Notes under the pieces: generated by a model
Databases searched by the model: none
The model's input: only the letters and a program-made list of their open reading frames with translations
Told to the model about the DNA's origin: nothing
NCBI RefSeq assembly: GCF_000817785.2
Contig: NZ_JTCM02000032.1
Coordinates: forward strand, 1 to 59,212
Direction of reading: 5' to 3'
Source of the DNA: Hassallia byssoidea VB512170
GTDB taxonomy: Bacteria > Cyanobacteriota > Cyanobacteriia > Cyanobacteriales > Nostocaceae
DNA length: 59,212 bases
Shown here: positions 10,762 through 12,987 of the stretch, piece by piece
Position numbering within the stretch: the first letter of the stretch is position 1
Layout of the letters: the number at the start of each line of letters is the position of its first letter
Program-made: the position numbers and the translations under genes

Positions 10762-12987
10762 CTATTTTTGTTTAGATAATATTGTGTACGCTTCATTAAT
10801 CAGCCGCATTTTCTCTTGCGCTTCTTTTTGTAGTTGCGGCTTATCAATAAATAAATCTGGATGCCATTTTTTGACTAAAATTCGATAAGCTTGTTTCACT
10901 TCAGCAAATGAAGCATTAGATTCCACTTCTAAAGTTGCATAAGCGCGAGAATTTTTGTCTTTTTCCCCTTGAGTTTTATTTTGCTGTTTACCAGTTGAAC
11001 CCATTTCCGCTTTCATTTGCGCTATTTCTTCATCAAGTTCCCAAGTGCGAAATTGCGCTTCAACTTGTTCTGGGGATGAAGGGGATGAGGGGGGGATGGG
11101 GAGAGGGGGGGATGGGGAAGCAGAAGAAGCAGGGGAAGCAGGGGAAGCAGGGGAAGCAGGGGAAGAAATTTCCCCTTGTCCCCCTTGTCCCCCTTGTCCC
11201 CCTTGTCCCCCTTGTCCCCCTTGTCCCCCTTGTCCCCCTTGTCCCCCTTGTCCCCCTGTCCCCTTGTCTCCCTGTCTCCCTGTCCCCCCATCTCCCCTAT
11301 CTGGATAAAGTTGATAATTTGAAGGTATATTCGCTCTTTCTAACTCTCGCAATAATTGATTAAAAACATTTTGTAACTGCTGCAATTCTTCGCGTTTATT
11401 AGCGATTTCAACAGGTTTATCAGCTTTAAATCTAATTACTTTATCTGCTTTATTTTCATATTCAGCTAATATTGATAAACCTTGACTGCTGAAACGAGAT
11501 AAATAATCCTCAGCTGCTGCTATACAAATTTGGGCAACTTGTTGATGATAAGATTCGGTTGCTGATTTTTCATCTTGTTTTTGTATATTCTTATTTAATA
11601 TATAAGAAATACTGCCAACTACAGCCGCTCCAACCGGACCACCTAACAACCAACCAATACCACTACCAACGGCTATTGAACCAGTTTCACTCAAATCATC
11701 GGTATTGCTAGGCTTAGGAGGTAGAGTAATTTGGGGAACGCTTGGGAAGCAAATTAATAAATCTTCTGGTCTTTCTTCTTGAAAGAATTCATAAGCTTGA
11801 TAAAGCCATTTTACTACAGCTAATTGCAATTCTGTCAAGTCTTTTTTTAAAGTGCTTACTTGCCAAGATTTAAAGTTATTTTCTGCTAAGGCAACTGCGG
11901 CATCAGTTTGATATTTTGTTAGCAAATTTGGTAAAGATAGCCAATCGCGTAAATCATTAACGCTTGTATTAAAGCCTTTTTGAATTAATTTTTCCGCTTT
12001 TTGTTTAATTTCAATTTTGGCGTTATTTTTTTCATCAAGAGATTTAATTTCACTAGCGATCGCGTCAATTTTGGCTTTTAATGATAGTATAATTTGAGAA
12101 GCGATCGCCTGCACTCTTGGTAAACGCACACCACCACGATTTTGTTGCAGCATCCCTACAATATTTTGCAAAGCCGATTCAAAAGCTACTAAACCACTAC
12201 TACTTGCTTGAGTTACATCACCTTTTAATCTTGCTCTTAAAGCGGGTAAAGCATCAACGCGATATAAATTGCTAAAACCTGGAGGTAATTCTGCTCGAAA
12301 ACTTTCCGCAACAAACAACAAGCGATTGTGGACTTGTTTTTGTTCATCGGGTTCGAGTAAGTTAAGAAAATTAGCGACAAAAATAACTGTCTTAATCCCG
12401 CGATCCAATAGCCAATCTCGCAAGTTTTCGCGCTCACCTAAAGTCATCAACTTGCGTGCATCCAGTAATTGTATTACTAAATCTGCACTTAATAGCTGCT
12501 CTTTCACTAAATTATCTTGTTCTTCCCTATCATTCGTTCCCGGTAAATCGAGAAATTCTACCCCCGTTTCTAAAAAGGGATGAGGACAAAAAACTTCTAC
12601 AGACGCAACATCTTTTCGCATCTGTCTGTTATTATCAAGAATTGCGAATTCTTTTAAAATTTCCGTTCCACTGCGATAGATTTCTGTACCATCTACCAAG
12701 ATGATGCGAGTTTGCAAGTCAGTACCATACTTGACAGTAATCGCTGCACCTGTGGTAGGAATCAAATCAATCGGTAAAGTGCGATTTCCCAACATCGCAT
12801 TCAGCAAAGTTGACTTACCATGATTAAATGGACCAAATACCCCAACCCGAAAGCTAGGATTTGCTAAGTGGGTGGAAATAGCAATTATATCTTGATAAAG
12901 TTGTGATTTGCGCTCTAAATCGAGTAATGCAGATGCAGACTTGAGAGAATCAGAAAGTTTTTTGTACACTTCATTTTGTTGTTGCAT
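10762..12987 (-). CDS. Dynamin-like GTPase with C-terminal J domain
   Basis: A 741-residue predicted large GTPase that should bind membranes and self-assemble. The P-loop GPFNHGKST is at residues 52-60, the switch motif DLPGTND at 147-153, and a degenerate G4 (NFLN) near 207-210. A glycine/alanine-rich hydrophobic hairpin ([22 protein letters not shown] region, about 430-465) could act as a membrane paddle. Residues about 570-655 are low complexity: nine GGQ triplets, then SPA triplets and Pro/Ser. The last 63 residues are a J domain with KKWHPDLF (HPD at 709-711), which normally stimulates Hsp70 (DnaK). It lies 190 bp downstream of the NpBDLP1-like gene in the same direction and is likely co-transcribed. 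I know of no characterised protein with this architecture. Confidence 0.85.
11090..11285. repeat. Coding 9-mer tandem repeats (GGQ and SPA triplets)
   Basis: On the minus (coding) strand, GGGGGACAA is repeated about nine times, giving Gly-Gly-Gln units; adjacent TCCCCTGCT repeats give Ser-Pro-Ala. The plus strand shows the complementary ccttgtccc units. Because the unit is 9 bp, copy-number change keeps the reading frame. The G runs with 4-nt spacers match a G-quadruplex pattern on the coding strand. Confidence 0.85.

Follow-up and report, generated by a model that had tools for sequence, protein, structure and literature searches.

A J-domain tail on the tandem partner of the cyanobacterial dynamin BDLP1 and its stand-alone counterparts

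Why should a bacterial dynamin end in a J domain? J domains with an HPD motif stimulate the ATPase of Hsp70, and the question is raised by one gene in a 59,212-nucleotide stretch of the genome of Hassallia byssoidea VB512170 (contig NZ_JTCM02000032.1), the whole of which is called the window here. An initial annotation of this gene had proposed, by analogy with auxilin and clathrin, that its product, here named DLP-J, lets DnaK disassemble a dynamin coat after membrane remodeling. In our reading, DLP-J is the tandem-A member, and thus the second dynamin, of the BDLP1 pair of cyanobacteria, and a dedicated short J protein is fused to the C-terminus of DLP-J by way of a flexible linker. That it is one half of a known tandem pair had escaped the initial annotation.

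DLP-J and its place beside BDLP1

The Dynamin_N profile matches residues 48-206 of DLP-J with 92.4 bits (cut-off, 27), and the DnaJ profile matches residues 682-740 with 53.5 bits (cut-off, 27.8; E = 2.6e-14); the only further Pfam match at E<=0.01 is the GTPase family MMR_HSR1, which overlaps Dynamin_N. The architecture first described, in which a dynamin GTPase and a hydrophobic hairpin (mean hydropathy, 1.56) precede a C-terminal J domain with an intact HPD, is therefore borne out, and its C-terminal region passes the J-domain profile (Table 1). A P-loop (GPFNHGKS at residue 52) and a DxPG motif (DLPG at 147) accompany the Dynamin_N score, as expected for the GTPase domain of a BDLP-type protein, and the PF00226 score and the HPD mark the protein as a J-domain protein. 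It is not a DnaJ of class A or B: the J domain is C-terminal and is the sole part of DnaJ that matches, and the DnaJ equivalog model gives 48 bits against a cut-off of 377.2. When searched against PDB sequences, residues 16-340 match BDLP (2j68; E = 2.9e-20) and residues from about 680 to 741 match a series of J domains. Pfam gives no PF21808 match in DLP-J. Among the 13 DnaJ-domain matches of the genome, only this one shares a contig and an open frame with a Dynamin_N match.

Table 1. Coordinates of the DLP-J gene, its parts, and its cluster neighbors in the window
Feature	Position	Strand	Basis
DLP-J, J-tailed tandem-A dynamin-like protein of 741 aa	10762..12987	-	ATG start, ORF
Dynamin_N GTPase domain, residues 48-206	12370..12846	-	Pfam PF00350
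Hydrophobic hairpin or paddle-like stretch, residues 446-464	11596..11652	-	Hydropathy; low model confidence
Low-complexity linker, residues about 559-642	11062..11313	-	Partly 9-bp tandem repeats; mostly predicted disordered
Pre-J element, residues 643-668	10984..11061	-	Common to stand-alone J proteins
J domain, residues 682-741, HPD 709-711	10765..10944	-	PF00226
BDLP1 orthologue (tandem-B dynamin), 692 aa	13178..15256	-	PF21808, 614 bits; PDB 2j68, 1348 bits
Small membrane-type protein, 112 aa, first cluster gene	15275..15613	-	Hydropathy; position conserved

The usual G4 motif of GTPases is N/TKxD. At this position (residues 206-209) DLP-J reads NFLN, and BDLP1 has NAWD; N206, F207, and N209 are invariant in the alignments A1 and A3, and the guanine specificity of DLP-J may differ.

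The linker DNA contains two tandem arrays of 9-bp units (13.4 copies at 11172-11288 and 5.8 copies at 11114-11165). A fusion produced falsely, by a frameshift or by these repeats, is ruled out because the units are whole codons, because the fusion persists, with a linker of another sequence, in a genome of the same genus (G300), and because DLP-J is fused in 71 of 80 named loci, the best 80 of 210 from the genome collection. Six of the nine non-fused loci are J-less (L165, L166, L167, L169, L172, and L173); the remaining three are one that reaches its contig end (L129), one with the J domain in a second ORF (L136), and one with a frame of 430 aa (L171). The 71 loci scored as fused include one (L133) whose protein is truncated to 649 aa and has no HPD.

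An AlphaFold2 model of DLP-J, built from 40 sequences (mean pLDDT, 74.2; pTM, 0.47), shows in order the GTPase, long helices, the hairpin region, the linker, a helix at 639-661, and the J domain. The predicted J domain is well formed, with ten-residue pLDDT means of 85 to 94 for residues 681-740 and helices at 673-685, 694-708, and 717-740, and the pre-J helix at 639-661 has ten-residue means of 77 and 69. Both the hairpin region (427-477, with a helix at 442-462 inside it) and the linker residues 565-636, which are predicted to be disordered, lie below 50. In Foldseek the model best matches the BDLP structures 2j69 and 2j68 (E = 6e-19 and 2e-18), yet whole-chain TM is 0.27 to 0.31 and the paddle is of low confidence.

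Directly upstream of DLP-J, in the same direction and with 190 bp between, lies the BDLP1 orthologue, which aligns with PDB 2j68 over residues 3-692 and makes DLP-J a tandem-A partner; a further 18 bp upstream is the gene for the 112-aa protein, whose hydropathy reaches 2.56 at residues 76-94. This arrangement recurs among the 71 fused loci named above: a BDLP1-like ORF lies upstream on the same strand in 70, within 600 bp in 68, and the small-protein gene is present in 66. In one fused locus (L127) the contig itself begins at the locus.

The initial annotation knew of no described bacterial dynamin with such a tail. Liu, Noel and Low, however, reported in 2018 that the gene beside BDLP1 of Nostoc punctiforme (B2IZD2) ends in a DnaJ-like domain, for which they suggested DnaK binding and a role in assembly (PMC6104087), and the fused dynamin-DnaJ architecture is thus already in print. 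B2IZD2, named in this one paper only among open-licence PMC papers, is like DLP-J by description, in its C-terminal domain and its BDLP1 neighbor; the passage on it makes no mention of a stand-alone J gene or of a pre-J element. The same paper describes Cj-DLP1 and Cj-DLP2 (PDB 5owv and 5oxf, both matched by the DLP-J model in Foldseek), likewise adjacent dynamins of which one has an extra domain, but there the domain is N-terminal and is not, in the passage concerned, described as a J domain. The pairing itself was formalized by Jilly et al. in 2018 as the Tandem A and Tandem B clades of cBDLPs (PMC5827413), paired genes like those for DLP-J and BDLP1, with BDLP1 in Tandem B. That paper differs in that the terms "DnaJ" and "J-domain" are absent from its main text, and in its "chaperone" group, kept apart from the tandem clades, the gene downstream of another type of dynamin encodes a DnaK domain.

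A tail family in fused and stand-alone forms

Alignment of the tails shows a conserved pre-J segment, F..WE.DEEI..MKA, and a model of this segment plus the J domain (A2) was used to follow the tail across genomes. In 386 genomes of the phylum it gave 25 matches at 123 to 203 bits, followed by a drop to 76. In a sample of 388 genomes of the order, one per species and with cut-offs of our own choosing, the tail was found at E<=1e-24 in 54 genomes, 41 of them in the family to which the window belongs (f1) and 13 outside it, and the dynamin core was found at E<=1e-60 in 150. To judge from its named loci (Nostoc, Anabaena, Calothrix, Tolypothrix, and others) and from the agreement of L094 (Tolypothrix brevis) with G300 in contig and position, f1 probably corresponds to the Nostocaceae in the broad sense. 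Forty of the 41 tail units in f1 share an open frame with the tandem-A dynamin and one (in G153) with the small protein of the cluster, and every one of the 40 sampled f1 genomes with an intact tandem-A gene carries the J tail.

Outside f1 the tail family takes the form of a stand-alone gene in 13 of 13 genomes. In 11 of these the J gene is the next one downstream, on the same strand, after the gene for a tandem-A dynamin of 538 to 566 aa that has no J domain, at a spacing of 71 to 176 bp in nine, with a 4-bp gap in one (L225) and a 4-bp overlap in another (L226); strand, order, and gaps were confirmed from the DNA. The possible translational coupling in these last two genomes, together with the hydrophobic hairpin of DLP-J, would fit a J unit that keeps a new hairpin-bearing dynamin soluble or helps it insert into the membrane and has no part in the GTPase cycle. 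Orthologues that share the hairpin but have no J tail are common, however, and we consider such a folding role quite unlikely.

The initial annotation would have given up its reading if homologues lacked the tail and no interaction with DnaK existed. Homologues do carry the tail throughout the intact f1 genes but mostly not in other families: of 109 genomes outside f1 in which the dynamin core reaches E<=1e-60, a set that includes some paralogues, 98 lack tail-family J (E<=1e-24). BLAST with tail or stand-alone proteins found the J unit in none of 28 J-less tandem-A loci; in two of them (L232 and L253) the available DNA stops at the gene or close to it. Plasmids searched with a stand-alone J protein returned two records, which match the J-domain part only (47% covered).

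The pre-J element ties the two forms together. When a 27-residue profile of it, made from the tails of 20 fused proteins, is run against 786 ORFs (763 distinct), each of the 13 stand-alone J proteins scores better than any ORF that lacks the tail family; only a few other J proteins were in this set as controls. Eleven of the 13 have E values from 6e-15 to 3e-4, two (L219 and L220) have 0.011 and 0.078, and the next match is a J-less dynamin at 0.11; two small control J proteins (L062 and L063) gave no match to this profile. On an origin of the J domain from a random J protein the J-domain tree carries too weak a signal to decide, and the pre-J element speaks for this particular family of stand-alone proteins. 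In two genomes of family f3 the stand-alone J gene (L225 and L226) has the pre-J element doubled before the J domain.

What is new here, on our reading of these alignments, is that the tail, made up of a pre-J helix and a J domain, constitutes a distinct family, and that it has an operon-encoded stand-alone form with the same pre-J element. A stand-alone J gene beside a J-less dynamin is, at the level of sequence, Rosetta-stone evidence for a dedicated co-chaperone, and the position of the J unit beside dynamin genes suggests that DnaK (Hsp70) works on the dynamin pair.

In a dynamin-core tree of 65 rows (quick search, rooted on paralogues), all 20 rows with a fused tail group together as a single clade (SH-aLRT, 100), and those with an adjacent J gene fall into three, which implies at least four changes on this tree. 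Fused and stand-alone forms do not fall into one clade in the J-domain tree, but that grouping is not rejected (p-AU = 0.257), and its deep branches are weak. Our preference is for an ancestral operon J gene that was lost many times and fused once.

We compared substitution rates over 383 close, non-independent pairs of 71 fused genes, comprising 70 named HPD-bearing rows and the window, a set in which HPD is 71/71 by construction. Omega is 0.061 in the GTPase, 0.194 in the J domain, 0.202 in the helical part, 0.278 in the pre-J element (where the alignment is gappy), and 0.458 in the linker, values that indicate purifying selection on the J tail and much less of it on the linker. In two overlapping samples drawn with no HPD filter, the motif is kept in 21 of 22 and 70 of 71 fused loci, and it is present in all 13 stand-alone J proteins. 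One fused J domain (L036, in G328) has HHD in its place and is probably unable to stimulate DnaK. This copy, along with the patchy presence of the J unit outside f1, is what a neutral passenger fusion without function might leave behind. Such a passenger is scarcely credible in view of the low omega of the J domain against that of the linker, the single fusion clade whose tail all 40 intact f1 genes of the sample retain, and the independent operon linkage of the stand-alone J gene.

The two dynamins are also kept or lost together. Of the 40 f1 genomes that have tandem A, 20 were tested, and all 20 show a BDLP1-type PF21808 match above 590 bits; such a match occurs in 0 of 20 genomes among those listed as lacking a core match. 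Three of the latter retain weaker matches, namely 393 bits over profile positions 1-253 (G048), 81 bits over positions 4-373 (G155), and a 30-bit remnant (G064), and a further genome that keeps debris of both dynamins (G385) was left out of the counts. The BDLP1 match of G352 lies in an open frame of no more than 563 aa. This joint absence of tandem A and BDLP1 supports the pair as a unit.

A candidate Hsp70 step for the dynamin pair

The proposal that we favor, to which we give an even chance, is that DnaK, brought in by the J unit, resets or takes apart a BDLP1/DLP-J hetero-oligomer in the manner of auxilin or CDJ2. The J domain would deliver DnaK-ATP to the hetero-oligomer on the membrane and trigger hydrolysis of that ATP, upon which DnaK would pull the oligomer apart or reset it after the GTPase cycle. 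The pre-J helix may serve as the docking element that ties the unfused J protein to the dynamin pair, the step of which we are least sure, and fusion in the Nostocales would fix the recruitment of DnaK. DnaK-driven disassembly of a dynamin coat, which the initial annotation drew from analogy and which we likewise regard as plausible, gains support because 11 of the 13 stand-alone J genes are linked to a tandem-A gene. A functional link between the J unit and the dynamin pair is much safer than this mechanism, and the frequency with which genomes outside f1 have tandem A and do without the J unit (the same 98 of 109) counts as evidence against a J-dependent reset. The Hassallia genome encodes two full-length DnaKs; no contig of its assembly, which is in 219 pieces, has both Hsp70 and Dynamin_N matches.

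The proposal has precedents elsewhere. Auxilin uses an Hsp70, Hsc70, to disassemble clathrin assemblies, and in it, as proposed for DLP-J, a J domain is brought to a membrane coat; auxilin, however, is a separate clathrin-binding protein, whereas the J unit lies within the GTPase or is encoded by its gene neighbor (PMC4436892). CDJ2 with HSP70B disassembles assemblies of VIPP1, which again joins a J protein and an Hsp70 on a membrane-remodeling polymer of the thylakoid system, but its client is IM30/VIPP1 and not a dynamin, and no fusion is involved (PMC6882379). AtcJ, like the stand-alone J proteins, is short, has a docking extension, and is encoded with its partner, to which the 21-residue extension ties it; unlike the pre-J unit, this extension is C-terminal, the partner is AtcC, and the setting is cold adaptation (PMC6715715).

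The tail could instead serve chiefly to pair the two dynamins by binding BDLP1, with DnaK recruitment secondary, along the lines of what Liu et al. suggested in 2018 by reference to the N-terminal domain of Cj-DLP1, which binds Cj-DLP2 (PMC6104087). Five pre-J residues (F646, W649, E650, E654, and K659) are identical in 71 of 71 fused rows, and the joint absence of tandem A and BDLP1 also fits this reading. We nevertheless find this rather unlikely: the J unit is missing from most non-f1 genomes with a tandem-A core match, the many loci that pair BDLP1 with a J-less tandem A argue that pairing needs no J unit, and the HPD, which Hsp70 requires but pairing would not, has been retained in almost all copies.

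A few J units occur where the dynamins do not, and the unit may therefore have another partner. Two genomes with a J gene (G062 and G308) have no dynamin core or PF21808 match; the gene is intact in G062 and is cut short in G308 by a stop inside the J domain. In G062 the pre-J+J gene lies at L237:8031-8360, and the next gene (8557-8985) encodes what we take to be an FKBP-type isomerase. In G153 both dynamins are gone, and a 268-aa ORF (L057:4884-5690) joins the small protein to the pre-J and J parts with the HPD intact, a decay product or else a hint that both parts work together. Survival of the unit in G062 and G153 would suit an arrangement in which the dynamin pair supplies an address on the membrane and DnaK, recruited to stressed membranes through the J tail, acts on other clients, such as Vipp1/IM30 or photosystem parts; DnaK2, DnaK3, and IM30 do colocalize under high light in Synechocystis (PMC6882379). 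The linkage of the stand-alone gene to tandem A and the fusion of 40 of the 41 tail units in f1 speak for the dynamins as client or partner, however, and we hold delivery to other clients to be unlikely.

If DnaK does act on the BDLP1/DLP-J pair, a broader statement can tentatively be made, though we lean against it: cyanobacterial BDLP1-type pairs would have a dedicated Hsp70 co-chaperone, free in certain lineages and, in Nostocales, fused, and disassembly by DnaK would be a built-in second energy step beside GTP hydrolysis. We know of no other machine of the dynamin family that is reset by an in-built Hsp70 recruiter, and no published test of a J-dependent DnaK step on BDLP1/DLP-J was found among open-licence PMC papers. 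Although BDLP1 is the dynamin of cyanobacteria that has been characterized, its GTPase is described as unaffected by oligomerization or lipid, and its cellular job as unclear (PMC5827413). A dedicated J protein for the pair would make DnaK a concrete candidate for the factor that BDLP1 has been missing. Were this correct, Hsp70 would be linked to dynamin turnover much as it is to the uncoating of clathrin and the disassembly of VIPP1, and BDLP1/DLP-J would offer a simple bacterial model of that link.

Further features of the dynamin cluster

For the anti-phage Leo systems PADLOC gave partial matches only: LeoA and LeoBC for DLP-J (54 and 27 bits) and LeoA, LeoBC, and LeoB for the BDLP1 orthologue (67, 54, and 34 bits). 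A third dynamin-like gene in the window, at 23779-25719, matches Dynamin_N with 60 bits and the CrfC model with 61 bits, far under the cut-off of 1146 for the latter. In some genomes, one of them in the window's genus, a J-less tandem A stands with one or two BDLP1-like genes in a further cluster that is paralogous to the first (L052, L053, and L054). The gap between the two dynamin genes of the window (12988-13177) contains inverted copies of TTCCCAG/CTGGGAA that resemble a dispersed repeat. Uma2-family genes at 10174-10758 and 15886-16578 bracket the dynamin cluster in the same direction and are 87% identical in DNA over 547 columns.
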